A stretch of DNA of 45,563 bases. Origin: an uncultured Acidobacteriota bacterium (GTDB taxonomy: Bacteria > Acidobacteriota > CAIWXX01). How positions within the stretch are numbered: position 1 is the first letter of the stretch; every line of letters starts with the position of its first letter. This document shows, piece by piece, positions 6,523-45,563 of this stretch. Where the stretch lies: NCBI GenBank assembly GCA_903916735.1, contig CAIWXX010000070.1:1-45563 (forward strand), given 5' to 3'. The translations under genes were made by a program, and so were the position numbers. The notes under the pieces were generated by a model that was not told the DNA's origin, ran no database searches, and worked only from the letters and a program-made list of their open reading frames with translations.

Positions 6523-7917
6523 ATGAGTCAGAAGGCGGTTCTGAAGATAGATGAAGGAGAGATCGAGCGTGTTTTGACCACGGCCGGCAAAGTTGAGCCG
6601 GCCCGGATTCGAGAGGTGTTGAAAAAAGCTGTCGACGCGAAAGGCCTCCAACCCGAGGAAGTGGCGATTCTCACGGGAGTCAGCGATCCGGATCTTCTCG
6701 GTGAACTGTTCGCAACTGCTAAGCATATCAAAGAAGGGATCTACGGCCGGAGGCTGGTTATTTTCGCCCCTTTGTATATATCGAATCTTTGCAGTAATGA
6801 ATGCCTTTATTGCGCGTTCCGCGCTCGCAATAAGGATCTTAATCGGCGCGCACTCAGCCAGGAATTAATCGCGCGAGAAGTTGAAGCTCTGGTGGATCAG
6901 GGCCACAAGCGCGTTCTGCTTGTCGCCGGTGAGTCGTACCCAAAAGAAGGATTTTCTTACATTCTTAATTCAATCGATACCATCTATGGCATCAAGCGAG
7001 GCAACGGAGAGGTCCGGAGGGTCAATGCCAACATTGCGCCTCTCACGTTGGAAGAGTTCAAGCAGCTTAAGAAAAAGAAGATCGGAACCTATCAACTTTT
7101 CCAGGAAACATATCACCGAAAAACATATTCAAAAATGCACCTGGGTGGGCGCAAGAAGGACTACGATTGGCGCATTTCAGCGATGCATCGTGCCATGGAA
7201 GCCGACATCGATGATGTCGGTATCGGGGTCCTCTTCGGTTTATTCGATTGGCGTTTTGAAATTCTGGCAATGCTCCAGCACATCCGAAACCTGGAGGAGT
7301 GCTTCGGGGTGGGGCCGCACACGATCAGTGTCCCGCGACTCGAGCCCGCCACCGGATCGGATCTTGCGAGTCAACCGCCGAAACCGGTTTCAGATGTGGA
7401 GTTCCGAAAGCTTGTTGCCATTCTTCGTCTGGCAGTTCCCTATACAGGCATCATCATGTCTACACGCGAAACGGCCAACATCAGGCGCGAAACATTCGCC
7501 CTCGGCGTTTCGCAAATCTCCGCCGGCAGCCGCACCAACCCCGGCGGGTACTCCGAGAAGGAGGTGGCCGAAGCGAGTCAATTCTCCCTGGGAGATCACC
7601 GGACGCTCGATGAAGTCGTTCGCGATGTGGCATCGATGGGATATATCCCCTCCTTCTGTACAGCCTGCTATCGACTCGGTCGCACGGGGCGGGATTTCAT
7701 GGATTTGGCCAAGCCGGGCGAGATCAAGTCGCATTGTGATCCCAATGCGCTTTCGACGTTCCTTGAATACCTTCAGGATTATGCCTCGCCTGCGACACAC
7801 GAAACCGGAGAGAAACTCATCGGGGCTGTGCTTGGCGAGATGGGTGAGAAGGAAAGAGCGATTTCTGAAAAAATGCTGCAAGCAGTCAAGGCCGGCAAGC
7901 GTGATGTGTTCATATAA
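6523..7917 (+). CDS. hydG: [FeFe]-hydrogenase maturase HydG
   Basis: HydG is the radical SAM tyrosine lyase that makes the CO and CN ligands of the H-cluster as an Fe(CO)2CN synthon. The protein is 464 residues from the ATG at 6523, which is preceded by AGAGGA; this matches the family length. The frame is also open upstream to 6367, but that part is not conserved. The radical SAM CX3CX2C motif is C90/C94/C97 (CSNECLYC). The C-terminal auxiliary cluster motif is exactly CX2CX22C (FCTACYRLG...EIKSHC). It is the first gene of the hydG-aspA-hydF-hydE cluster, with aspA starting 32 nt downstream. Confidence 0.97.
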   Translation: MSQKAVLKIDEGEIERVLTTAGKVEPARIREVLKKAVDAKGLQPEEVAILTGVSDPDLLGELFATAKHIKEGIYGRRLVIFAPLYISNLCSNECLYCAFRARNKDLNRRALSQELIAREVEALVDQGHKRVLLVAGESYPKEGFSYILNSIDTIYGIKRGNGEVRRVNANIAPLTLEEFKQLKKKKIGTYQLFQETYHRKTYSKMHLGGRKKDYDWRISAMHRAMEADIDDVGIGVLFGLFDWRFEILAMLQHIRNLEECFGVGPHTISVPRLEPATGSDLASQPPKPVSDVEFRKLVAILRLAVPYTGIIMSTRETANIRRETFALGVSQISAGSRTNPGGYSEKEVAEASQFSLGDHRTLDEVVRDVASMGYIPSFCTACYRLGRTGRDFMDLAKPGEIKSHCDPNALSTFLEYLQDYASPATHETGEKLIGAVLGEMGEKERAISEKMLQAVKAGKRDVFI

Positions 7918-7949: not shown

Positions 7950-9368
7950 ATGGAGAATACGGCTATGGATATAGCGATGCGCATCGAGAAAGATGGGATT
8001 GGTCAAGCCGAAATCCCCGGTGATGTGCTGTGGGGAATTCACACTCTGCGCGCCATGGATAACTTCCCACTGGCCGGACGGCCGGTACATCCTTCACTCA
8101 TCCATGCCTACGGCCAGGTCAAGCTCGCCTGCGCAACCACAAACCGCCGGCTCGGTTTCTTTGATCAGAACCCGAAAAAGGCTGATGCAATCGAGCAGGC
8201 GTGCAGGGAGATGGCTGCAGGCCGGCTGGATCGGCACATTGTCGTCGATCTTCTCCAGGGCGGCGCCGGAACCAGCACCAACATGAATGTGAATGAGGTT
8301 CTGGCCAACCGAGCGCTGGAAATCCTCGGCGAGCCTCACGGCCGCTACGACATTGTCTCGCCACTGGATGATATCAATCGTCACCAGTCAACAAACGATA
8401 CCTACCCGACGGCTCTGCGGCTGGCGACCATTCGGCTTCTGCATGAGCTCGAATCCCGAGTGCTGTCTCTGCAGGAGGCTTTTCAAGCAAAAGAGAAGCA
8501 ATTCGACCATGTGGTCAAGGTCGGGAGGACCGAACTTCAGGATGCTGTGCTCACGACCCTTGGCCGCGAGATGGCGGCTTATGCCGAAGCCTTCAACCGC
8601 GACCGGTGGAGGATTTACAAGTGCGAAGAGCGGCTTCGCACCGTCAATCTGGGTGGGACTGCGATCGGAACAGGCCTTGCCGCTCCACGGCAGTTCATCT
8701 TCAGGGCCGCGGATACGTTGCGCGAATTGACTGGCATTGGTTTCGCGCGCGCCGAAAACCTCATCGATGCAACTCAAAATGTCGATGTGTTCGTGGAAGT
8801 CTCGGGGATACTGAAAGCGCTGGCGGCCTCCTTGTTCAAAGTGGCATCCGATCTCCGCTTTTTATCCTCGGGTCCTGAAGCCGGGATTGGAGAAATTCGG
8901 TTACCGGATCGTCAGGCTGGTTCTTCGATCATGCCGGGCAAAGTAAATCCAGTCATCCCTGAAGCGGTTAGCCAGGCCGCGCTTTGGGCCATGGGCCAGG
9001 ACGCGACGATTGGTCTCGCGGCGGCGATGGGAAATCTGGAGCTGAATCCATTTTTGCCGCTCATCGCATCATGCCTGCTGGAGAATATTGAAATTCTCAC
9101 GCGCGCCAGCGACATTTTCCGGCGACATTGTGTGGAAGGGATCGAGGCCGACGAAGCCCGTTGCAGGCGCCATGTGGATGCATCCACGAGTGTCGCGACG
9201 GCTTTGCTTTCAGTCGTGAGCTATGCAGAAGCATCGAGAATCGCCGAGCGGGCCCGAAAGGAAGGAACCCCCATCCGCGAGATCGTCATCGAAGAGAAAA
9301 TACTCAGCGCCGAACGTTTTGATCAGCTCGTCAGCCCTGAGTCCGTCTGCCGCCTGGGTTCTGAATGA
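7950..9368 (+). CDS. aspA: Aspartate ammonia-lyase in the maturation operon
   Basis: This catalyses reversible deamination of aspartate to fumarate and NH4+. It is 472 residues with the fumarase/aspartase signature GSSIMPGKVNP (from residue 324), plus GGAGTSTNMNVNEVLANRAL, QSTNDTYPTALRLA and VKVGRTELQDAV, closely following bacterial AspA. An ATG at 7965 (MDIAMRIEKDG) has a better ribosome binding site (GGAG 9 nt upstream) and may be the true start. It sits between hydG and hydF on the same strand with gaps of 32 and 45 nt, and aspA occurs in hyd maturation clusters of other anaerobes. It may supply ammonium for the azadithiolate bridge of the H-cluster; this is a hypothesis based on context. 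Confidence 0.93.
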   Translation: MENTAMDIAMRIEKDGIGQAEIPGDVLWGIHTLRAMDNFPLAGRPVHPSLIHAYGQVKLACATTNRRLGFFDQNPKKADAIEQACREMAAGRLDRHIVVDLLQGGAGTSTNMNVNEVLANRALEILGEPHGRYDIVSPLDDINRHQSTNDTYPTALRLATIRLLHELESRVLSLQEAFQAKEKQFDHVVKVGRTELQDAVLTTLGREMAAYAEAFNRDRWRIYKCEERLRTVNLGGTAIGTGLAAPRQFIFRAADTLRELTGIGFARAENLIDATQNVDVFVEVSGILKALAASLFKVASDLRFLSSGPEAGIGEIRLPDRQAGSSIMPGKVNPVIPEAVSQAALWAMGQDATIGLAAAMGNLELNPFLPLIASCLLENIEILTRASDIFRRHCVEGIEADEARCRRHVDASTSVATALLSVVSYAEASRIAERARKEGTPIREIVIEEKILSAERFDQLVSPESVCRLGSE

Positions 9369-9413: not shown

Positions 9414-10652
9414 ATGGCGCGGACTTATAAAGGGTTTCATCTTCATATAGGCATTTTCGGCCGCCGAAATGTCGGCAAATCCAGCCTGCTGAATGCCATC
9501 ACGAAACAGCAGGTTTCCATTGTTTCAGATTATGCCGGCACAACCACAGACCCTGTTGAAAAGCCGATGGAGCTTCTGCCTCTGGGTCCAGTGCTCTTCA
9601 TCGACACAGCAGGGATTGACGATGTCGGGGCGCTCGGTGAGCTCCGAGTGCAGAAGACACGGCAGGTGTTTGATCGCACCGATCTGGGTGTGCTGGTTTC
9701 TGAAGCGAGTACATGGGGAGAATTCGAAGAACTGATTCTTTCCGAATTGAAATCCCGCGACCTCCCGATTCTCGTCGTGTTCAACAAGATCGATCTCGCC
9801 GAGCCCGCTGTCGATGTGACGGGTCGGCTCTCCGTGATGAAGATACCTTTTGTCCGGACGAATGCCGCATCAGGAGCGGGCATATTGGATTTTCGTCAAT
9901 GCTTGCTCGACAGTGCCCCGAGCGACTTTATCGATAATCCGGTTATCCTGGCTGATTTGGTGAAGCCTGGGGCGCTCGCCGTGCTGGTTGTTCCCATTGA
10001 CAAAGAGGCGCCCAAAGGCCGGCTGATCACTCCACAAGTTCAATCGATTCGCGATTTACTCGATAACGACTCCTATTGTCTCGTGGTGAAAGAGCGTGAA
10101 TTGCGACGCGCGTTGGAAACACTCAAGGAACCTCCCGGACTCGTTGTCACCGATTCCCAGGCCTTCTTGAAGGTCGCCGCCGACACGCCTCTCGATGTCC
10201 CTCTGACAAGCTTCTCCATCCTCTTCTCACGATTCAAAGGAGACCTCGCCACTCAAGTGGAAGGGACTCTGGCGGTGGATCGACTGAGAGCGGGCGACCG
10301 GGTCCTCGTGGCCGAAGCCTGCACTCATCACCCGATCGGTGAAGATATCGGTCGGGTCAAGATTCCGCGCTGGCTCACTCAGTACATCGGCGGGAAGCTG
10401 GAGTTTGTCACGGTGCAAGGACATGACTTCCCCGACGACCTCTCGCCCTATAAGCTCGTCATCCACTGTGGAGCGTGTATGTACAACCGCCGCGAGATGC
10501 TGAACCGGATCTTACGCTGTCGTAAAGCGAATGTGCCGATCACAAACTACGGTCTGGTCATCGCCTATAGCCTTGGCATTTTTGAACGCGCACTAGGGCC
10601 TTTCCCGGCGGCATTGGAGTTATATCAAAGCCGGGCTCGATCAGGGCAATAG
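9414..10652 (+). CDS. hydF: [FeFe]-hydrogenase maturase GTPase HydF
   Basis: HydF is the scaffold on which the 2Fe subcluster is completed before transfer to the hydrogenase. The 412-residue protein has an N-terminal Era-like GTPase domain: P-loop GRRNVGKS (16-23), DTAG (64-67), NKID. A dimerisation region follows, then the C-terminal [4Fe-4S] domain with C303-T-H305 and H351-C352-x2-C355, i.e. the CxH...HCxxC signature. Key motifs are intact. It lies 45 nt after aspA and 11 nt before hydE, so it is part of one transcription unit. Confidence 0.97.
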   Translation: MARTYKGFHLHIGIFGRRNVGKSSLLNAITKQQVSIVSDYAGTTTDPVEKPMELLPLGPVLFIDTAGIDDVGALGELRVQKTRQVFDRTDLGVLVSEASTWGEFEELILSELKSRDLPILVVFNKIDLAEPAVDVTGRLSVMKIPFVRTNAASGAGILDFRQCLLDSAPSDFIDNPVILADLVKPGALAVLVVPIDKEAPKGRLITPQVQSIRDLLDNDSYCLVVKERELRRALETLKEPPGLVVTDSQAFLKVAADTPLDVPLTSFSILFSRFKGDLATQVEGTLAVDRLRAGDRVLVAEACTHHPIGEDIGRVKIPRWLTQYIGGKLEFVTVQGHDFPDDLSPYKLVIHCGACMYNRREMLNRILRCRKANVPITNYGLVIAYSLGIFERALGPFPAALELYQSRARSGQ

Positions 10653-10663
10653 GTGAAATCCGG

Positions 10664-11767
10664 ATGTCAGATCTGTTCGATGGAATTCATGAGTTCGAAA
10701 ACCTGACGCGTGATGCGATTCTCGACTGGCTCAGAGAGGACGATGAGACCAAGCTCGAACGGCTTTGGCATGCGTCAAATCTCGTCCGCCGCCGTTTTGT
10801 TGGCGACGATGTCCATCTACGAGGACTCATTGAAATCTCTAATCATTGCGTGCGCTGCTGTGGCTACTGCGGGCTGCGGTTCGAGAACAAGAAAATCGAG
10901 CGCTATCGAATGAGCGCCGACGAGATACTTGCCTGTGCGCACCAGGCATTGCAAATGGGCTATGGAACAGTTGTGATGCAATCGGGCGAGGATTATGGCA
11001 TCACGCGTGACTGGCTCACCGGTATCATTCGTCGCATCAAGAAAGAGACGCCTCTGGCCGTCACACTGAGCCTCGGGGAACGGTCTGATGAGGATTTCAA
11101 AGCTTGGCGCGAAGCTGGGGCAGATCGTTATTTGCTTCGCTTCGAAACCTCGGATCCTGATTTATATCGATTTATCCACCCATCTTTGCCGCATCGCGAA
11201 TCTGATCGCATGGCCATTTTGCGTTCTCTTCGAGAGTTGGGATATGAGATCGGGAGCGGGATTATGATCGGCATCCCTGGTCAAAACTACCGGAGCGTTG
11301 CCGGAGATATCGAATCATTCCGTTCACTGGACCTCGATATGATCGGCGTCGGACCTTATATCCCGCATCCTGACACTCCACTCGGCATGCCCGATACGCC
11401 GACGGCACTTCCGGATGACGAGCAGGTGCCTCACAGCGAAGAGATGACCTACAGGGTTTTGGCGATGACACGATTGGTCTGCCCTGAAGCCAACATCCCC
11501 AGCACGACTGCACTCGCGACGTTGAACAAGGCCAGTGGCCGTGAGCTCGGCTTGCAGAGAGGCGCCAACATTGTCATGCCCAACCTGACGCCGTCTCAGT
11601 ATCGAGTCAAATATGAAATATATCCCGACAAGGCGTGCATCAACGAGACTGCGCAATGCTGCCACATCTGCCTGTCCGGTCGTATCGAATCCATTAGCCG
11701 CTCGATCGGCAAGGGCCAAGGCGGACGAAAGCGCGAGAGAATCCGAAAGGAACCGGACATGCATTGA
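10664..11767 (+). CDS. hydE: [FeFe]-hydrogenase maturase HydE
   Basis: HydE is a radical SAM enzyme acting on the HydG product in assembly of the 2Fe subcluster. It has 367 residues with the radical SAM CX3CX2C motif at C62/C66/C69 (CVRCCGYC). Further landmarks are YRMSADEIL, GTVVMQSGED, SLGERSDED, YLLRFETSDPDLY, GSGIMIGIPGQ and GVGPYIPHPDTPL, all typical of HydE. The C-terminal segment has the extra cysteines of ETAQCCHICL. The last ~25 residues are very basic and non-conserved. It is the last gene of the maturation cluster; the next gene has its own promoter. Confidence 0.97.
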   Translation: MSDLFDGIHEFENLTRDAILDWLREDDETKLERLWHASNLVRRRFVGDDVHLRGLIEISNHCVRCCGYCGLRFENKKIERYRMSADEILACAHQALQMGYGTVVMQSGEDYGITRDWLTGIIRRIKKETPLAVTLSLGERSDEDFKAWREAGADRYLLRFETSDPDLYRFIHPSLPHRESDRMAILRSLRELGYEIGSGIMIGIPGQNYRSVAGDIESFRSLDLDMIGVGPYIPHPDTPLGMPDTPTALPDDEQVPHSEEMTYRVLAMTRLVCPEANIPSTTALATLNKASGRELGLQRGANIVMPNLTPSQYRVKYEIYPDKACINETAQCCHICLSGRIESISRSIGKGQGGRKRERIRKEPDMH

Positions 11768-30903: not shown

Positions 30904-30932
30904 TTGACACCTATTTGACGCGAGCCTATACT
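30904..30932 (+). promoter_or_regulatory. Strong promoter of the rex-hydCBA operon
   Basis: TTGACA (30904-30909), N17, TATACT (30927-30932) is a near-consensus sigma-70 promoter. The expected start of transcription is about 30939, inside the Rex box. Confidence 0.8.
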
Positions 30933-30934
30933 GG

Positions 30935-30952
30935 CTGTGAAATGGTTAACAA
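30935..30952 (+). promoter_or_regulatory. Rex operator
   Basis: CTGTGAA-ATGG-TTAACAA matches the known Rex box forms TTGTGAA-N4-TTCACAA and TTGTTAA-N4-TTAACAA in 18 bp. It overlaps the predicted transcription start, so Rex bound at low NADH would block the operon, which would be released when NADH rises. A further TTCACA half-site lies at 30963-30968. Confidence 0.7.
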
Positions 30953-30970: not shown

Positions 30971-31606
30971 ATGACGAAGATCCCAGATCGAACCATTGAG
31001 CGGCTGATCACGTATCGCAGGCTTTTACAGAAGCAGGCGGTCGAGGGCGTCATCAGCATTTACTCGCATGACCTTGCGACTCTGGCCCACGTCAAGCCCG
31101 TGCAGGTTCGCCGCGATTTGATGGAGATCGGGTTCTCAGGCAGCCCCAGCAAGGGATATGGAGTTCAGGGATTGCTCGATTACATCAGTGGTATTCTGGA
31201 CATGCCTGGTGGAACAAAGGCCGCATTGGTTGGTGCCGGCAATCTGGGCCGCGCGCTTCTTTCCTATTTCAACGGCCGTAGCTCGACCATTAATGTTGTT
31301 GCGGCTTTTGATGTTGATACAAATATCATCGGCCGAGTTATTGCGGGATGCCGCTGCTATGACATTCAAGAATTAGGTGCTCGTGCCAAGGAATTCGGCA
31401 TCACCATCGGCATCGTGACTGTGCCGGCGACGCAAGCCCAATCAGCCGCCGATGCGCTCGTCGAAGCCGGCGTCACTGGAATATTAAACTTCGCGCCGGT
31501 CCCATTGAGGATCCGGCCAGATGTTTACATAGTACAAGTCGATATTACGCGCGCCCTTGAAAAGGTGGCGCATTTTGCCAAGCCACAGAGTGCGAAAGAG
31601 GTGTAA
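30971..31606 (+). CDS. rex: Redox-sensing repressor Rex
   Basis: Rex senses the NADH/NAD+ ratio and represses fermentation genes when NADH is low. The 211-residue protein has an N-terminal winged helix (IPDRTIERLITYRRLLQ and the recognition region KPVQVRRDLMEIGFSG) and a Rossmann domain with ALVGAGNLGRALLSYF (GAGNLG at 88-93). The C-terminal domain-swap helix is present. It is the first gene of the hydrogenase operon, with hydC starting 4 nt after its stop. The Rex box lies in its own promoter, so autoregulation and control of the hydrogenase are expected. Confidence 0.95.
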   Translation: MTKIPDRTIERLITYRRLLQKQAVEGVISIYSHDLATLAHVKPVQVRRDLMEIGFSGSPSKGYGVQGLLDYISGILDMPGGTKAALVGAGNLGRALLSYFNGRSSTINVVAAFDVDTNIIGRVIAGCRCYDIQELGARAKEFGITIGIVTVPATQAQSAADALVEAGVTGILNFAPVPLRIRPDVYIVQVDITRALEKVAHFAKPQSAKEV

Positions 31607-31610
31607 CGAC

Positions 31611-32090
31611 ATGGAGCACGCGACGAACGTCGAGCAAGTCATCAAGCGCTTTCCGAAAGCGGGCAGGGACAGCTTGATCCCGATTCTCCAAGCTGTCCAG
31701 GAAGAGCAAGGCTATCTTTCGGAAGACGCTGTGGTTCGAATCAGCCGGCACCTGAAAATTCCGACAAGCAAGGTGTACGGCGTTGCTACTTTTTACAACC
31801 AGTTCCGGTTCCAGCCCAAAGGCAAGTATCATGTAGTGGTATGTCGTGGGACTGCCTGTCATGTGAAGGGCTCCGCCAAGGTCCTCGACATGGTGACGAA
31901 GGCGTTGAAGATCGAACCTGGAAAAACCACTCGCGACAAAATGTTCAGCCTGGAAGTTGTGGCCTGCATGGGTGCATGCGGACTGGCGCCGGTTGTGAAC
32001 CTTAATGGCGAGTTCTACGCCAAGGTCACTCCGATGAAACTCCATCGCATCATCGAGGAGTGTCGGACAAAGGAGCGGGGAAATGGCTAA
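31611..32090 (+). CDS. hydC: HydC, NuoE-like [2Fe-2S] subunit of bifurcating hydrogenase
   Basis: The protein is 159 residues from the ATG at 31611, preceded by AGAGGTG at 7 nt and 4 nt after the rex stop. The N-terminal helical bundle (SLIPILQAVQEEQGYLSEDA) and thioredoxin-like domain bind one [2Fe-2S] cluster via C78, C83, C119 and C123 (CRGTAC and CMGAC). In HydABC complexes this subunit docks on HydB and takes part in NADH-linked electron bifurcation. Its stop lies within the start of hydB (8-nt overlap), so the two are coupled. Confidence 0.94.
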   Translation: MEHATNVEQVIKRFPKAGRDSLIPILQAVQEEQGYLSEDAVVRISRHLKIPTSKVYGVATFYNQFRFQPKGKYHVVVCRGTACHVKGSAKVLDMVTKALKIEPGKTTRDKMFSLEVVACMGACGLAPVVNLNGEFYAKVTPMKLHRIIEECRTKERGNG

Positions 32091-35338: not shown

Positions 35339-37069
35339 ATGAGCACATTTACAATCGAAGCCAACGGCCAGAAGCTGGAAGCGAAAAAGGGCGAGACAAT
35401 TCTCTCGACCCTGAAGCGCGCCAACATCAAAGTGCCAACGCTCTGCCACATCGAAGGGCTCCCGCCGGCGGGTGCCTGCCGCATGTGCGTCGTCGAAGTG
35501 GAAGGATCACCCAACCTCGTCCCCTCATGCTCGTTCCCAGTCGCCGAAGGCATGAAGATCAAAACCAATTCTCCGCAAGTCATCCATACTCGCCGCACAA
35601 TCATCGAATTGTTGCTTGCCAATCATCCTGATGACTGTCTCTATTGCGTGCGCGGAGGCAATTGCGATCTTCAAAGCCTCGCCCGGAACCATGGGGTTCA
35701 GGTGCGCCGTTTCCGCGGGGCGCGCAACCGCCGGGATAAGGACATATCCGGACCTTCCATCCAGCGGGAACCTGACAAGTGCATTCTTTGCGGCAAATGC
35801 GTCCGCATCTGCGAAGAAATCCAGGGAGTCTCAGCCATCGATTTCCTGCAACGAGGATCCAAATCGGTGGTCGGCACGGCATTCGACAAGGGGTTGAACG
35901 TGTCGAGCTGCATCAACTGCGGGCAGTGCATCGTCGTCTGCCCGACCGGCGCGCTGCACGAGCGGTCCAATGTTGACGATGTGCTGAGGGCGCTCAATGA
36001 TCCCGAATCCTTCGTCGTCGTCCAGCATGCGCCGGCCGTATCGGTCACCATCGCCGAGGAATTCGGCATGAAGCCCGGAGCAGACATGGATGGAAAAATG
36101 GTTGCTGCCTTGCGGCGCATCGGTTTCAAACGCGTGTTCGATACTTCGTTCACGGCTGATCTGACGATCATGGAAGAGGGCTCGGAGCTTGCTCACCGTG
36201 TTGCCACAGGCGGCGTCCTGCCGATGATGACATCCTGTTCGCCCGGCTGGATCAAGTTCGTCGAGACCTTCTACCCCGAATTCACGCCGAACTTGTCGAC
36301 ATGCAAGAGCCCACAGCAGATGATGGGCGCCATCGTAAAAACCTACTTTGCCCAACGCGAAGGACTTGACCCGAAGAAGATCGTTTCAATCTCCATCATG
36401 CCCTGCACGGCGAAGAAATTCGAAGCCTCTCGCCCCGAGATGGGACGCGATTACACTCAAGACGTCGATTATGTTTTGACAACGCGCGAGCTCGCCGATC
36501 TCTTCCGTATCGCCGGCCTTGACCCAGCCACAATGGAACCCGAAGCGCCGGACACACCATTTGGCGAACGTTCGAGCGCCGGCAAACTCTTCGGCGCCAC
36601 CGGCGGCGTCATGGAAGCGGCGGTCCGATCCGTCCATTTTCTGTTGACCGGCAAAGAACTTGAAGAGCTGAAGATCGAAGATTTTCGCGGCATGAAAGGC
36701 TCCAAGGAGCTGCACGTGAAGGTCGGCGATCTGAATGTCGGTGCCGTTGTCGTCAGCAGCCTCGGCCAGGCTCGCCGACTCCTCGATGAAATCAAAGCGG
36801 GTGGCAGAAAAGACATCCACTTCATTGAAGTGATGACCTGTCCCGGTGGGTGCATCAATGGCGGCGGGCAGCCGATCGGCACTGATATCGAAGCGGTCAA
36901 GGCGCGCATGAAGGCGCTTTACCAGATCGATCGCGATGCTCCACTGCGCGTCAGCCATCGCAATAAATGGGTCCAGCGGCTCTATGATGAATTCCTCGGC
37001 AAGCCGCTTGGCGAAAAAAGTCACCAGCTCCTTCACACCCATTACCATAAACGGGATGTGATGGTGTAA
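35339..37069 (+). CDS. hydA: HydA, catalytic subunit of bifurcating [FeFe]-hydrogenase
   Basis: The protein is 576 residues from the ATG at 35339, with AAGGA 6 nt upstream. Domains: [2Fe-2S] (C36, C47, C50, C64); His-Cys3 [4Fe-4S] (H96, C100, C103, C109); two ferredoxin-type [4Fe-4S] clusters (C148/C151/C154/C158 and C191/C194/C197/C201); the H-cluster domain; and a short SSU-like tail. H-cluster motifs are L1 TSCSPGW (C300), L2 IMPCTAKKFE (C355) and L3 EVMTCPGGCINGGGQP (C501, C505). L1 has Ser at 301 where the classical motif is TSCCPGW. It reduces protons or oxidises H2 using electrons from HydB and HydC. It starts 16 nt after the hydB stop. Confidence 0.96.
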   Translation: MSTFTIEANGQKLEAKKGETILSTLKRANIKVPTLCHIEGLPPAGACRMCVVEVEGSPNLVPSCSFPVAEGMKIKTNSPQVIHTRRTIIELLLANHPDDCLYCVRGGNCDLQSLARNHGVQVRRFRGARNRRDKDISGPSIQREPDKCILCGKCVRICEEIQGVSAIDFLQRGSKSVVGTAFDKGLNVSSCINCGQCIVVCPTGALHERSNVDDVLRALNDPESFVVVQHAPAVSVTIAEEFGMKPGADMDGKMVAALRRIGFKRVFDTSFTADLTIMEEGSELAHRVATGGVLPMMTSCSPGWIKFVETFYPEFTPNLSTCKSPQQMMGAIVKTYFAQREGLDPKKIVSISIMPCTAKKFEASRPEMGRDYTQDVDYVLTTRELADLFRIAGLDPATMEPEAPDTPFGERSSAGKLFGATGGVMEAAVRSVHFLLTGKELEELKIEDFRGMKGSKELHVKVGDLNVGAVVVSSLGQARRLLDEIKAGGRKDIHFIEVMTCPGGCINGGGQPIGTDIEAVKARMKALYQIDRDAPLRVSHRNKWVQRLYDEFLGKPLGEKSHQLLHTHYHKRDVMV

Positions 37070-37088: not shown

Positions 37089-37496
37089 ATGACAGCACCG
37101 AAAAAGATACTTATCGTCGACGATGATATTGACCTCCTCGAACAGGCCAGCATGCTACTGAAGAGTGAAGGATACGATGTCGTCACCGCGGGCGGGCAGG
37201 AAGAAGCCGAAGAAGCAATCCTCTCAGTGATCCCCGATCTTTGTGTCGTGGACCTCATGATGGAGAACATGGATTCGGGATTCATCCTCTGCCACACCGT
37301 TAAAAAGCTTTACCCTGAGACGCCGGTCATCCTGCTGACAGCTGTGAGATCGAGCACCGGGCTGGATTTCACTTCTCGATCTCCTGAAGCCGGATCGTGG
37401 GTCGAGGCCGATGCCTTCCTGGACAAGCCGATTCGCCCTGAGCAGCTGAAGGCCGAGGTCAAGAGGTTGCTCGCGGCGCGAGGAGAGGATCATTGA
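37089..37496 (+). CDS. Single-domain response regulator in the hyd operon
   Basis: The 135-residue CheY-like receiver has the acidic pocket D11-D13, phospho-acceptor D55 (VVDLMM), T84 and K113 (DKP). An insertion of about 15 residues (SSTGLDFTSRSPEAG) lies between the T and K strands, unlike typical CheY. There is no output domain, so it must pass phosphate on or act by protein contact. GGGAGGGAGG precedes the ATG. It is 19 nt after hydA, so it is made with the hydrogenase. The hydrogenase-kinase fusion downstream is the obvious phospho-donor. Confidence 0.9.
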   Translation: MTAPKKILIVDDDIDLLEQASMLLKSEGYDVVTAGGQEEAEEAILSVIPDLCVVDLMMENMDSGFILCHTVKKLYPETPVILLTAVRSSTGLDFTSRSPEAGSWVEADAFLDKPIRPEQLKAEVKRLLAARGEDH

Positions 37497-38053
37497 TGGT
37501 GATCCGGCGGCATCACGGTCATTTCATGGCGTTACAACGCATGCAACGAGTTTTTTAATGAGAATAGTGGGCGTCATCGCAATCATCGACGTCGATGACC
37601 AGTGCTCGAATCAACCCATTTTGACCTCCATGTCGACGTCCACGTTTCTCTAAAACAGCTTGCCGCCGGACCAATAATTCAAATCATGAAAGACATGGCA
37701 TCAGACCCAAGGGGGGCTTCTATCTCAAATCAATTTCGAATACCACAGAGGAACGGTTGAGTATTGCCAGGGGAGTGAGCCCATGGATGTAAAGAAGACG
37801 TCGAGAAATGCTCCAGAGTGGCAACAGAGAAATCTCCGTCGCCCCTCTGGGGCTTCATTAATTTTTGCCGATGACGCGCTTTCTTTGGTGTTATTGGGCG
37901 GATGGGTGAGGCTCGTTCCGAGCGGCTTTGCCGTGAACAGCGCTGCTCACAAGGATTCCCGTCCTCGCCATCTATTGCAGGCGGTGTGGCTGTTCTGCCG
38001 TGAACGCCTTTTCTCGCCGACTTTCCTACCGTTCGTCTTCGGCCTGTCTCATC
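37497..38053. other. Intergenic region before the sensory hydrogenase gene, with palindromes and a REP-like hairpin
   Basis: No conserved gene. It holds a 16-bp perfect palindrome at 37583-37598 (TCATCGAC-GTCGATGA), a GCCCC-TCT-GGGGC hairpin at 37841-37853, and an 18-bp near-palindrome at 37933-37950 (GTGAACAGC and GCTGCTCAC halves). A 94-codon frame at 37783-38067 has a fair ribosome binding site but overlaps the repeat-like stretch and shows no family, so it is not called. A long minus-strand frame here is antisense to the kinase gene. Confidence 0.5.
37801..37860 (+). repeat. REP-like hairpin repeat
   Basis: The stretch around GCCCC-TCT-GGGGC (37841-37853), with the flanking GAGTGGCAACAGAGAAAT, looks like the dispersed palindromic repeats found between genes in many genomes. 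Only one copy is in this window, so repeat status is inferred from its form. Confidence 0.35.
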
Positions 38054-40093
38054 ATGAGTCCGACTAATCCCGGCGAACCAGTCGGCCTTGTCTCCACCAT
38101 CAAGGAGCGGTGCCGAAAGTGTTACACCTGCGTCCGCGAATGCCGGGCGAAAGCGATTCGGATCCACGCCGGTCAGGCTGAAGTAGTCGTCGAACGCTGC
38201 ATCGGCTGCGGCAATTGTGTCCGTGTCTGCAGCCAACATGCGAAGAGGGTGCGCGATGGGTTGACACCCACCCGCGATCTCCTGAAATCCGGCCGTTGTG
38301 TGATTGCGGCTGTCGCGCCGAGTTTTCCGGCCGAGTTCTGCCATGGTGATTCTGAACCGTACTCCGGCCTCGACTATTGCACACTCGTCGGCATGATTCG
38401 TGCTCTTGGATTCACCAAGGTCATCCAGGTGGCATATGGCGCCGACCTCGTCGCCAGGAAATACCGCGAACTTCTTGAAACATATCCTGATCGCAACTTC
38501 ATTTCCACGACCTGTCCGTCGATCATACTCTACGTTGAAAAGTACCATCCTGACCTCGTGCCTTACCTTGCGCCTGTCGTCTCACCGATGATCGCCACGG
38601 CGCGTGTCGCGCATAAAATCTATGGCGATGATGCCCTCGTCGTCTTCATCGGTCCTTGCATCGCGAAAAAGGATGAAGCCGCCACCGAACGCTATAGCCG
38701 GGATATGGCGGCAGCGCTGACCTTTGTCGAGTTGCGGCAGATGTTCAGAGAAAGCGGAATCACGACTGAGTCCGTCAGGCCGACGGATTTCGATCCGCCT
38801 TACCCGGACAAGGGGATGCTTTTTTCGATCAAACGCGGAATTTTGCAGGCTGCCGGCATCAAGGAAGATTTGATCAATGACGATGTGATTGTGGCGGATG
38901 GCGGATCGGAATTCGGCCATGCGCTACGTGAATTTGAATCCAAACATCTTAATGCCCGTTTGCTGGAAGTGCTGTCCTGCAAAGGCGGCTGCATCATGGG
39001 CGCCGGCACGGCGACGCATGCAACTCTCTTCAGCCGGCGTTCCGAAGTCAGTCGCTATGTTCGCCGCCGTCTGAGGAGTGGAGAAGAGCGCCTCCTCAAT
39101 CCGCCCGGTGCTGACGATATCGATCTGAATGCCTGGTTTTACCCGGATGATCGAACGATGCCGGTTCCTTCCGAGGGAGAGATACAGGCGATCATGGAAG
39201 AGATGGGCAAGCGCACCCATGAAGATGAACTCAATTGCGGCGCCTGTGGCTATGAAACCTGCCGCGAACACGCGATCGCGATCTTCGACGGCCTCGCCGA
39301 AACCGAGATGTGTCTGCCGACGACGATTGCACGATTGGGCGAAGTCGTCCTGGAACTGAACACGACAAACCAGCAACTCGCCAGCGCGCAACAGGCTCTG
39401 GTACAATCTGAGAAGCTTGCGAGTATGGGCCAGCTGGCGGCAGGCATCGCTCACGAAGTCAACAATCCTCTCGGCGTCGTTCTCCTCTACAGCCAGCTGT
39501 TGCTTGAGGAGTGCAATCCTAAATCCGAGCTCTACAACGATCTGAAGAAAATCGCCGAGCAATCCGATCGGTGCAAGAAGATTGTTTCAGGGCTTTTAAA
39601 TTTTGCCCGTAATAACCAGGTGCAGCTCAAACAGGTTCATCTGGGCGACTTTGTTCAGTCCTGCGTGCGTGCGGTCATCGTCCCCGACGATGTCAAAATC
39701 AAGGTGGAAAGTCGTCTCAAAGACCCGGTGACCGAACTGGACCAGGATCAGATGATGCAGGTTTTCACCAATTTGATGAACAACTCCATCGAAGCGATGC
39801 CCGGTAAGGGCACTTTGGTGATCACTGCGGATGGCGATGATGCGTGGGTGCAGGTGAGTGTCAGTGATAACGGAAACGGCATTCCGAAAGAACATCAGAA
39901 AAAAATATTCGAACCGTTCTTCACGACGAAGACCGGCGGCAAAGGCACTGGGCTGGGTCTGGCAATCACGTACGGCATCGTGAAGATGCACCGCGGCAAC
40001 ATCGCTGTGCAGTCGAATGCCGATCCGAAAAATGGTCCGACCGGGACGACGATTACAGTCAAGTTGCCGCGAAATCCGGGAAATGCCGCATAG
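38054..40093 (+). CDS. Sensory [FeFe]-hydrogenase fused to a histidine kinase
   Basis: The protein is 679 residues from the ATG at 38054. Order: two [4Fe-4S] ferredoxin clusters (C20/C23/C26/C30 and C49/C52/C55/C59); an H-cluster domain with TTCP (C154), GPCIAKKDE (C202) and EVLSCKGGCIMGAG (C309, C313); a CO-dehydrogenase-type [4Fe-4S] motif (C395, C398, C403, C420); a coiled coil; HisKA with H467 (GIAHEVNNPLG); and a HATPase domain (NNSIEAM, DNGNGIP, FEPFFTTK, GTGLGL). All four H-cluster cysteines are kept, but the proton-relay Cys next to C154 is Thr, as in sensory HydS-type enzymes. It probably senses H2 or redox state and autophosphorylates. No clear ribosome binding site is visible; the frame extends upstream to a GTG at 38000. 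Confidence 0.92.
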   Translation: MSPTNPGEPVGLVSTIKERCRKCYTCVRECRAKAIRIHAGQAEVVVERCIGCGNCVRVCSQHAKRVRDGLTPTRDLLKSGRCVIAAVAPSFPAEFCHGDSEPYSGLDYCTLVGMIRALGFTKVIQVAYGADLVARKYRELLETYPDRNFISTTCPSIILYVEKYHPDLVPYLAPVVSPMIATARVAHKIYGDDALVVFIGPCIAKKDEAATERYSRDMAAALTFVELRQMFRESGITTESVRPTDFDPPYPDKGMLFSIKRGILQAAGIKEDLINDDVIVADGGSEFGHALREFESKHLNARLLEVLSCKGGCIMGAGTATHATLFSRRSEVSRYVRRRLRSGEERLLNPPGADDIDLNAWFYPDDRTMPVPSEGEIQAIMEEMGKRTHEDELNCGACGYETCREHAIAIFDGLAETEMCLPTTIARLGEVVLELNTTNQQLASAQQALVQSEKLASMGQLAAGIAHEVNNPLGVVLLYSQLLLEECNPKSELYNDLKKIAEQSDRCKKIVSGLLNFARNNQVQLKQVHLGDFVQSCVRAVIVPDDVKIKVESRLKDPVTELDQDQMMQVFTNLMNNSIEAMPGKGTLVITADGDDAWVQVSVSDNGNGIPKEHQKKIFEPFFTTKTGGKGTGLGLAITYGIVKMHRGNIAVQSNADPKNGPTGTTITVKLPRNPGNAA

Positions 40094-40198
40094 CACCATG
40101 CCCCCAAGAAATCTCCCATCTCAGCATGGGAACGATAGGTGGATTGAGGCGAGGATCGTTATGCCAACCGCAGTCAACTGAAAGCGAGGATCAACCCC

Positions 40199-41347
40199 AT
40201 GGAGAAATTGAAACTTCTGATCGTTGATGATGAACAGCCCATGCGGGAAGGCGTCATGCGGGCTCTCCGCAAGTACACGGTGAGTCTTCCGTATGCTGAG
40301 GAGGATTACGGTTTCGATTTCTCTGAGGCCGGCACCGGCGAAGAAGCACTCGATGTGATCGACCGCACACCGCCCGACATACTTCTGCTCGATTACAAGC
40401 TGCCGGGCATCAAAGGGCTTGACGTGCTCGATCACATCATTCAGCGCCAGCTCGATATTCTCACCGTGATGATCACGGCCTATGCCTCGCTCGAAACGGC
40501 CGTCAGCGCCACCCGCTATGGCGCTTACGATTTCCTGGCGAAACCGTTTACGCCCGAGGAGCTCCGGACGGCTGTTCACAAGGCTGTCAAACATCTGATT
40601 TTGACACGGCAGGCCCGCAAGTTCACTGAAGAGAAACGCCGTGTCAGGTTTCAATTCATTTCGGTGCTGGCACACGAGCTGAAATCGCCGCTCTCGGCGG
40701 TGGAAGGTTACCTCCGGATCATGCAGACGCGTTCGGCGGGCAATGAGCTCGGCGCCTACGATGAAATGGTCAGGCGCTCGGTAACTCGCCTGGAAGGCAT
40801 GCGAAAAATGATCATGGACATCCTGGATCTGACGCGCATCGAGTCCGGTCAGAAAACGCGGGAAATGGCGGAAGTCGATCTGCGCGACGTTGCCCGTGTC
40901 GCCATCGAAACGGCTCAGCCTCCGGCTCAGGAGCGTGGAATCTCGATCGAATTGGATTCCCCCGAGAGCATCTTCATGGTTGCGGATCGAGGCGAACTGG
41001 AGATCATTCTGAACAATCTGGCCTCGAATGCCGTCAAATACAACCGCGATCATGGCAAGGTCACATTGGCTTTATCGGCCGACGACGAGACGGTGACGAT
41101 CGCCTGCACCGACACCGGCATCGGCATGAGTGAGGAAGAGACGGTCCAGCTCTTCAAGGAATTCGGTCGCATCAAGAACGAAAAAACACGGCACATCCTC
41201 GGATCAGGTCTGGGTCTCTCGACGCTCAAAAAACTCGCCACTGAATATTACGGCGGCGGAGTCAAGGTGGAATCAAAACCAGGCGAAGGAACGACTTTCA
41301 CCGTGACCTTGCAACGCCGGCCGGCGGGATCAGAGGCGAAGGCTTAG
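40199..41347 (+). CDS. Receiver-histidine kinase hybrid
   Basis: The 382-residue protein has an N-terminal receiver (D10-D11, D65, T93, K115) with an insertion (TVSLPYAEEDYGF) after the first helix. A HisKA domain with H160 (FISVLAHELKSPLSAVEGYL) and a HATPase domain (NNLASNAVKYN, DTGIGMS, GSGLGLSTLKKL) follow. There is no DNA-binding or transmembrane part. It lies 105 nt after the hydrogenase-kinase gene on the same strand, with GAGG upstream of the ATG. It could accept phosphate from that kinase at D65 and then modulate its own kinase activity, forming the middle of a phosphorelay; this order is inferred. Confidence 0.92.
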   Translation: MEKLKLLIVDDEQPMREGVMRALRKYTVSLPYAEEDYGFDFSEAGTGEEALDVIDRTPPDILLLDYKLPGIKGLDVLDHIIQRQLDILTVMITAYASLETAVSATRYGAYDFLAKPFTPEELRTAVHKAVKHLILTRQARKFTEEKRRVRFQFISVLAHELKSPLSAVEGYLRIMQTRSAGNELGAYDEMVRRSVTRLEGMRKMIMDILDLTRIESGQKTREMAEVDLRDVARVAIETAQPPAQERGISIELDSPESIFMVADRGELEIILNNLASNAVKYNRDHGKVTLALSADDETVTIACTDTGIGMSEEETVQLFKEFGRIKNEKTRHILGSGLGLSTLKKLATEYYGGGVKVESKPGEGTTFTVTLQRRPAGSEAKA

Positions 41348-44139: not shown

Positions 44140-44515
44140 TCATGGCATCCGATGCGCCGGATCTTCTTTCTGGACGATGCCGTCGAGCAGATGAACGATG
44201 CGGCTACTGTAGGATGCGTTTTTCTCCGAGTGCGTGGCCTGGATGATCGTAGTGCTTTCGCGGTTGAGCTGAGTAAAGATCTTCATGATCTCTTCGCCCT
44301 GTTTGGAATTCAGGTTTCCCGTCGGCTCGTTGGCCAGTATGAGTGTGGGCCTGATGATCAGGGCACGGGCGATGGCCACGAGCTGCTGTTGTCCTCCGGA
44401 GAGCTGGGTTGGGGAAGAGGTCCTTCTTGGCCACCATCTGAAAGCGGTCCAGTATCTCCGCGATCAACCCCCTTGCGCTCAAAGCCTTTGACCTTCTTGT
44501 ACAGGAGCGGTGTCT
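44140..44515 (-). pseudogene. ABC transporter ATPase (LolD/MacB-like), 3' remnant
   Basis: On the minus strand [16 protein letters not shown] leads by frameshift into [16 protein letters not shown] (the ABC signature). This is followed by [14 protein letters not shown] and TTIIQATHSEKNASYSSRIVHLLDG. The Walker B Asp is Asn (NEPTG in place of DEPTG), and the Walker A half is missing. The reading frame is broken at least once near 44405 and again near 44460. The gene is cut off where the transposase remnant begins, consistent with inactivation by insertion. Confidence 0.75.
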
Positions 44516-45563
44516 AGCCCGACTTCCGCAACTGGGACACATTTGCCAAAGTAACCGATTGATTTTTAATAAAAATTCTTTAAAGGTCGGCACTACAGAG
44601 GGCTGGTTTTTTCTCCTCGATTTGGCTGTTCGCTGCGAAGATTTGTGGAGGAGGTTGAGCCGGCAAATCCAGTATTGGCCATGTAAGCAGTAGGCAGTGA
44701 TCCTTTTCGGGTTGCGTGTAGCGTGAGAGGACGAGGAGGCGATTGTCTGTAGTGGGGAGGTGGACATCAATCATCTGGATGCCGGCGAATTTATCGCGCA
44801 CCTCGCGAGGTGAAAGACCTGGTGCCATTGGCCTGAGGCGATGCTTCAATGTGACATGAAGGCAGTAGGCCATGAAGGCGATGAAGATGTGCGCCTCAAT
44901 TCGTGTGTCGAGTTGATGGAAAACCGGTCGGAGCGAGAGATCACCCTTGAGGTTTTTAAACGCCTGCTCGATCTCGGTGAGGCGGATGTTTTGCTGCCAG
45001 AGTATCGATGGATCTTCTCCGCACAGATTAGATCGGAGGAGATAGTGGCCTTCTCTCCGTATCGTCTCCCGGAATTTGTTCTTCCTCAATGAAGTTGCCT
45101 TCCATCACTTCATAGGCAATCGGGAATCCATCCGGAGTCACAATCAAAGCAATCACGACCTGCACACAATCCGGTCTCTTGTCCCTGCCATATCCGAACT
45201 TCCTTTTTCCGATCTTTGGTGCGTCGCACTCAAAGTAGGTGCTGGTCAGATCGTAGAAAAGAACATCAAACCCCGCAGCAAACATGTAACCCCATCGTTC
45301 TCGTAAGAAGGAGAACAGATTTTTCTTGTGTGTCAGTAATTTGTCCATGCAACGATAGAGCTTATCGATCTGAACCAGAGAAAAGTATTCGCCAAGCAGA
45401 TCCCCCATCGCGCTCCGGCTGTACCAGAGCCGATGCAACTCCATCTCCGCCGTGCGAACATGAATCACATCGCAATCCACCGGCGCCGCCTTTCGATTCT
45501 CCGGGCATAACGCCACTTGCTTCGGCTGTGTTTGCCCTTGTTCTAGTATCTCAACAGTTCGAC
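44516..45563 (-). mobile_element. IS1634-type insertion sequence, incomplete
   Basis: The element is recognised from its transposase (next entry) and from the way the ABC gene ends abruptly near 44515. The sequence there (CCGACTTCCGCAACTGGGAC, from about 44519) looks like an IS terminus. The other end lies outside the window, so terminal repeats and target duplication cannot be checked. Confidence 0.6.
44580..45563 (-). pseudogene. IS1634-family transposase with internal deletion, N-terminus off the edge
   Basis: The minus-strand frame is open from the right edge and contains FDVLFYDLTSTYFE, then KRKFGYGRDKRPDCVQVVIALIVTPDGFPIAYEV, the first catalytic (DDE) region of IS1634/IS4-type transposases. 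Directly after MEGNFIEE, near 45090, the frame jumps to RETIRREGHYLLRSNL, then LTEIEQAFKNLKGDLSLRPVFHQLDTRIEAH, the C-terminal region with the catalytic Glu. The segment expected between them, with the second Asp, is missing and the two parts are in different frames. The enzyme should therefore be inactive. Confidence 0.85.

Follow-up and report, generated by a model that had tools for sequence, protein, structure and literature searches.

The locus analysed here raises the question of what a hydrogenase-like protein fused to a histidine kinase senses, and what it controls, when it is encoded beside a NADH-linked [FeFe] hydrogenase. The window (the whole stretch of 45,563 nucleotides, from an uncultured Acidobacteriota bacterium) carries rex, hydC, hydB and hydA, followed by genes for a lone receiver (RR), a hydrogenase-kinase fusion (HydHK) and a receiver-kinase hybrid (RRHK), with the maturase genes on the same contig (Table 1). 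The best explanation, to which we assign a probability of about 0.5, is that HydHK reads H2 and phosphorylates RRHK and/or RR, and that the output adjusts HydABC. This explanation builds on the domains, the intact residues, the conservation of the cassette and its linkage to HydABC and the maturases; from these we infer the H2 signal, the phosphotransfer and its order, and the final target.

Table 1. Features of the window, with positions counted from its first nucleotide.
Feature	Position	Strand	Remark
hydG maturase	6523..7917	+	TIGR03955 above cut-off
Aspartate ammonia-lyase family gene, within maturase cluster	7950..9368	+	
hydF maturase	9414..10652	+	
hydE maturase	10664..11767	+	
sigma70-like promoter TTGACA-17-TATACT, 11/12	30904..30932	+	upstream of rex; consensus match only
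Rex-operator-like site CTGTGAAATGGTTAACAA, 2 mismatches	30935..30952	+	immediately 3' of promoter-like site
rex, NADH-sensing repressor	30971..31606	+	NCBIfam Rex models above cut-off
hydC, NuoE-like	31611..32090	+	
hydB, NuoF-like with C-terminal DPD_II and FAD/NAD(P) extension, 1079 aa	32083..35322	+	
hydA, group A NADH-linked [FeFe] hydrogenase catalytic subunit	35339..37069	+	
RR, lone receiver, D55, 135 aa, conserved insertion replacing helix alpha4	37089..37496	+	
Intergenic gap RR/HydHK, 557 bp, non-coding	37497..38053	+	
HydHK, 2x[4Fe-4S] ferredoxin, H-cluster domain, Cx2Cx4Cx16C Fe-S domain and histidine kinase (H467), 679 aa	38054..40093	+	
RRHK, receiver (D65)-HisKA (H159)-HATPase hybrid response regulator, 382 aa	40199..41347	+	

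HydA scored 816.6 bits against the curated model NF040763 for the NADH-dependent group (cut-off 765), and HydABC was the only group A hydrogenase found in the genome, in a 183-contig assembly on which such statements of absence depend. Four proteins with an Fe_hyd_lg_C domain were found in this genome: besides HydA and HydHK, two less closely related ones are encoded on other contigs. The standard C-terminal 2x[4Fe-4S] domain that is needed for bifurcation is replaced in HydB by DPD_II and Pyr_redox_2 domains, and this extension, which takes the place of the usual C-terminal ferredoxin domain, is possibly a second bifurcation site like that of Hydrogenedentota sub-type I. A long HydB was present in all six compared loci in which the receiver comes straight after hydA. 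RR starts 20 bases 3' of the hydA stop, and the purine-rich bases in front of it may act as a ribosome-binding site. Upstream of rex, the position of the Rex-operator-like site next to the promoter-like site is suggestive, although chance alone would give 1.4 sites of this kind per window. The gap between RR and HydHK had no Rfam match, contained no relic of a related gene and was single-copy in the genome, and a mobile or repeated insertion was therefore ruled out.

HydHK had been described, in a sequence-only reading that preceded this analysis, as a 679-residue fusion of ferredoxin domains, an H-cluster domain with four ligand cysteines, a further Fe-S domain and a histidine kinase, and its coordinates, length, domains and ligands proved correct. 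The domains are Fer4 (residues 16-59), Fe_hyd_lg_C (83-317), the Fe-S domain PF04060 (393-422), HisKA (458-521) and HATPase (563-674). Two N-terminal [4Fe-4S] motifs (C20/23/26/30 and C49/52/55/59), all four H-cluster ligands (C154, C202, C309 and C313) and four cysteines in the exact Cx2Cx4Cx16C spacing of sensory (group C/M2f-like) enzymes (PMC8163306; C395, C398, C403 and C420, within the PF04060 match) are present. These ferredoxin, H-cluster and Cx2Cx4Cx16C cysteines, together with H467, the N-box residues N573/N577 and the G-boxes, were invariant among nine sequences from several phyla. A pseudogene or degenerate sensor was ruled out, all catalytic and ligand residues being intact. K205 lies at what we take by position to be CpI K358, and its retention in close HydHKs is an argument that a [2Fe] site is bound. 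The second-sphere residues T153, G200 and L307, at the CpI positions C299, M353 and M497 that separate sensory from catalytic enzymes (PMC10055695; PMC8163306), are by alignment all of the sensory kind. The earlier suggestion that threonine in place of the proton-relay cysteine marks a sensory hydrogenase held only in part: Thr153 does precede C154, but close relatives have T, A, S or D at this position and TmHydS has Ala (PMC10055695), so that the threonine itself is no signature. A Pfam scan found no PAS domain in HydHK, and the Fe-S domain passes directly into HisKA; judged by these sequence features, HydHK would be a sensory hydrogenase except for the PAS domain, which a kinase replaces. 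This kinase most resembles the AtoS/ZraS (NtrB-like) class. In a tree of H-domains constructed without TmHydS and TamHydS, HydHK was separated from HydA (100/98), and PAS-type sensors of Bacteroidota fell on the HydHK side.

Whether the signal is H2 itself has to be weighed against a more general redox signal, in which ferredoxin or NADH would be sensed through the ferredoxin and Fe-S domains and the H-domain would hold a [4Fe-4S] cluster only. The loss of the proton-relay residues is consistent with such a sensor, as is the third H-cluster loop, which in nearly all close relatives is CxGC and one residue shorter, and the Fer4 ligands are conserved to the same degree as the H-cluster ligands. 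In addition, group-C proteins without standard H-cluster motifs have been reported, and H-cluster binding has been doubted for the group C1 proteins of Hydrogenedentota (PMC11406978). However, the close HydHKs retain the four ligand cysteines and the K358-equivalent lysine, the loop of the window HydHK (residues 305-318, 38966-39007) is CKGGC with the standard Cx3C spacing of catalytic enzymes, and the maturases are linked. TmHydS and TamHydS, with similar changes, still bind an H-cluster and turn over H2 (PMC10055695; PMC8163306). On this evidence, a general redox sensor appears improbable.

The phylogenetic survey that the sequence-only reading had proposed showed that the three-gene set recurs beside hydA in its own phylum and in metagenome-assembled genomes (MAGs) of Planctomycetota, Myxococcota and Bacteroidota. 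A protein search of named genomes identified full-length HydHK orthologs at 46-57% identity in MAGs of Planctomycetota (locus L005), Myxococcota (L006) and Bacteroidota (L007-L014); HydHK adjoins RR and RRHK in all of these loci, and HydA wherever the contig extends so far. Among 396 genomes of the same phylum, a close HydHK was found in 18, a close RRHK in 18 and both in 16, and the loci of the four genomes with HydHK or RRHK alone stop at contig ends. All 18 genomes with HydHK also contained a group A HydA, a gene found in 57 genomes of this sample; these are raw counts that include shared ancestry, with HydHK present in eight sampled genera. In this phylum, HydHK, RR and RRHK lie beside hydA in nearly all loci long enough to tell. 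The order is A-RR-HK-RRHK in the window and in two other genomes (G096 and G395), A-RR-HK-RR2-RRHK in one family and A-HK-RR-RRHK in the remaining loci, and the retention of membership despite changed gene order argues for selection on the set. In several operons, HydE, HydG and HydF are found 3' of the cassette, as is often the case. Recurrence of the same set beside the same enzyme in several phyla suggests that the cassette probably tunes hydrogen metabolism to the level of H2. The HydA and RR trees place the window with G096 and G395 (99/98 and 95/90), and the HydHK and RRHK trees, which are poorly resolved, do not. Horizontal replacement of the window kinases was considered, and no claim is made for it, the AU tests being weak (p 0.03, 0.10 and 0.26) and the group having been picked post hoc. 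In two Bacteroidota loci (L012, 8228-9967, and L014, 8271-9977), the HydA next to HydHK is divergent (approximately 38% to the window HydA), H-cluster motifs one and two being changed, and both loci additionally hold a normal HydA and a PAS-type sensor with an SpoIIE phosphatase.

Both candidate phosphoacceptor proteins are intact. RR keeps D11, D12, D55, T84 and K113, and D55 is invariant in the ortholog alignment. The unusual insertion noted in the first reading is real: approximately seven residues common to the orthologs lie between beta4 and beta5, in place of helix alpha4, with the conserved pattern T-G-x-x-F...W-[VI]-x-[AV]-D. An AlphaFold2 model (pLDDT 82) has the receiver fold minus helix alpha4, with a low-confidence loop instead. 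A fold search indicated an ordinary receiver fold, revealing no special relative that would be informative. Receivers usually use the alpha4-beta5-alpha5 surface for output and dimerisation, and because alpha4 is missing from the model, the RR family probably has a special partner. RRHK, correctly recognised beforehand as a 382-residue receiver-kinase hybrid with D65, consists of REC (7-126), HisKA (152-217) and HATPase (263-373) domains, and D65, H159, N277, D305 and the G-box are invariant among its orthologs. Domain scans agreed with the first reading in finding no DNA-binding domain in HydHK, RR or RRHK, which rules out such an output within any of the three proteins.

Under the favoured explanation, HydHK would work in the cytoplasm as a sensor kinase, its input domain being a [FeFe] hydrogenase of the sensory, group-C type. 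By analogy with TmHydS and TamHydS, H2 at the H-cluster would change the redox state of the H-cluster and the N-terminal clusters, and this change would be passed through the Fe-S domain and a continuous helix to the DHp helices, setting the autophosphorylation of H467. Exposure of TamHydS to H2 leads to reduction of the H-cluster and of one of the N-terminal clusters and to a change in secondary structure, whereas the C-terminal cluster does not become reduced (PMC13104023). Since the C-terminal cluster of TamHydS stays unreduced and no PAS or HAMP domain lies between the Fe-S domain and the DHp helix of HydHK, the simplest reading is that the signal would travel from the H-domain to the kinase by conformation. 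The AlphaFold2 model of HydHK (pLDDT 62.9) is too poor for signal geometry, and a long helix from the Fe-S domain into the DHp helix (421-486) appears in it at low confidence. Counted against the explanation as a whole were the doubt raised over Hydrogenedentota proteins, the CxGC loop of most orthologs, the unreduced cluster of TamHydS, the poor HydHK model and the sigma54 activator beside the HydHK homologs of G021 and G034 (see below).

From H467, the phosphate would pass to D65 of RRHK and/or D55 of RR. RRHK would resemble LvrB in acting as a hybrid response regulator, and RR would most likely be its phosphorylation target. As RR and RRHK are paired in the absence of HydHK at other loci (see below), they look like partners, and the order HydHK to RRHK to RR is favoured, with a direct branch from HydHK to RR possible. 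RRHK matches the hybrid response regulators of the LvrB/PakF type, with an N-terminal REC, DHp and CA domains and conserved D and H. LvrB of Leptospira has the same REC-DHp-CA architecture and likewise no DNA-binding domain; LvrA, encoded in the same operon, phosphorylates the receiver of this REC-HK protein and boosts its autokinase activity (PMC5863495). Unlike HydHK, LvrA is a PAS hybrid kinase, and LvrA-LvrB has neither a lone receiver nor a metabolic operon (PMC5863495).

The output would act on the adjacent HydABC, in parallel to Rex as the presumed reporter of NADH/NAD+. Four features favour RR as a direct regulator of HydABC: the conserved set has no DNA-binding output, RR is encoded next to hydA, the RR and HydA trees agree, and a putative Rex/sigma70-type control region already exists at 30904-30952. 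A distant transcription factor is a strong rival. The same sensor would then control transcription by way of a DNA-binding response regulator encoded elsewhere; RRHK would be the kinase at which the pathway branches, and RR would compete for phosphate or serve as a sink for it. The NtrB-like affinity of the HydHK kinase is consistent with such an output, as are the approximately 39 receiver domains related to RR in the genome and the inference that LvrAB works via unlinked regulators (PMC5863495). Additionally, HydHK homologs at 38% identity (G021 and G034) lie near an NtrC-type sigma54 activator and not near HydA, which suggests that the usual output of such sensors may be transcription, and Cache kinases of the same subfamily in [NiFe] hydrogenase operons also adjoin NtrC-type sigma54 activators. 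However, Rex is the sole DNA-binding regulator in the conserved cluster, and its operon would already be served by Rex and a sigma70-like promoter. A sigma54 promoter near the operon was rejected, the 21 sigma54-type sites in the window matching the 23 expected by chance and none lying near rex or in 37497-38053. Control through transcription is the less likely of the two outputs, and a somewhat unlikely one, in our estimate.

The pairing of RR with RRHK extends beyond [FeFe] hydrogenases. Distant homologs of RRHK (approximately 35%) and RR (38-46%) were found paired, without HydHK, in group-3b-like [NiFe] hydrogenase operons (loci L146-L150, L153, L155 and L157) that include HypA, HypB, a maturation protease and Hdr subunits. 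Kinases in these operons are of the Cache-HAMP type and belong to the histidine kinase subfamily of HydHK, and an NtrC-type sigma54 regulator adjoins some of them. In three Bacteroidota loci, a HydHK-type kinase domain occurs with RRHK and is joined to a Cache domain where HydHK has its hydrogenase domain. These loci (L015-L017) encode RRHK, a Cache_3-domain kinase (kinase domain 50-53% to HydHK) and a receiver of 165 aa that carries a long insertion. The occurrence of RR-RRHK pairs at [NiFe] hydrogenases with Cache kinases points to a hydrogenase-associated module with exchangeable sensors; from these gene neighbourhoods, RR and RRHK look like a portable pair, with HydHK one of several sensors feeding it. 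A bolder and rather doubtful extension is that the pair controls H2-metabolising complexes in general ([FeFe] HydABC, group-3b-like [NiFe] and Hdr-linked), with an H-cluster or Cache kinase as the exchangeable sensor. The output would be the alpha4-less RR, which would bind the hydrogenase complex and alter how active it is; this would amount to a post-translational phospho-switch on an electron-bifurcating-type hydrogenase.

Compared to known systems, the locus is only partly new. The sequence-only reading had considered it a candidate for an undescribed system; the kind of sensor is already represented in HydDB group C1 and in Hydrogenedentota, whereas the open-access literature searched yielded no text on the conserved partners RR and RRHK or on their occurrence at [NiFe] hydrogenases. 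HydDB lists [FeFe] group C1 as 'histidine kinase-linked (putative)' with its role undetermined there; like HydHK, its members have a sensory-type H-domain linked to a histidine kinase and are proposed to sense H2, but no partners or mechanism are given (PMC5037454). HydHK, with HisKA and HATPase fused, has the kinase linkage of C1, and assignment to C3 is possible; kinase-bearing group-C proteins of Hydrogenedentota are partly assigned to C3 (PMC11406978). In that phylum, group-C proteins with PAS or kinase domains occur in group A3 clusters, and BfuT, beside the A3 hydrogenase BfuABC of sub-type V, resembles HydHK in combining a group-C H-domain and a kinase next to a bifurcating-type hydrogenase; the text mentions no RR or receiver-kinase partner, and the window HydB fits BfuB of sub-type I (DPD_II and FAD), not sub-type V (PMC11406978). 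In Cloacimonadota, a C1 gene adjoins a kinase gene (PMC8542988). HoxBC-HoxJ-HoxA of Ralstonia similarly uses a hydrogenase-like H2 sensor to drive a histidine kinase that controls hydrogenase (PMC5707799), but has a [NiFe] sensor, a separate kinase and a single DNA-binding regulator, HoxA.

That some [FeFe] hydrogenases are sensors is a long-standing proposal. The two for which biochemistry is cited here, TmHydS (group C) and TamHydS (group D), share with HydHK the two N-terminal [4Fe-4S] motifs, an H-domain that lacks the relay cysteine, the C-terminal Cx2Cx4Cx16C cluster and the proximity of their genes to a group A hydrogenase. The last domain is a PAS domain in TmHydS and the Fe-S domain in TamHydS, and neither has the fused kinase of HydHK; their signal output is therefore not directly assayable. 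HydHK carries an H-cluster domain and a full kinase on one chain and is encoded with two candidate phosphoacceptors and the maturases, which makes H2 sensing assayable by autophosphorylation. Related receiver and receiver-kinase pairs at two unrelated hydrogenase classes suggest a shared, uncharacterised layer of hydrogenase control.

Several minor observations concern the same genome. A receiver with 33% identity to RR (L076, G000:C137:64106-64465) adjoins HdrC/HdrA/MvhD-like genes. Two further hydrogenase-like Fe-S proteins, of 581 and 435 aa (L078 on G000:C62 and L079 on G000:C160), are each encoded next to genes for an RsbW-like HATPase and a NADH-linked molybdopterin oxidoreductase, and the K358-equivalent lysine is absent from the former. 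At the contig end, on the minus strand of the window (44204-45561), broken-frame ORFs have, judged by eye, the look of a transposase remnant.
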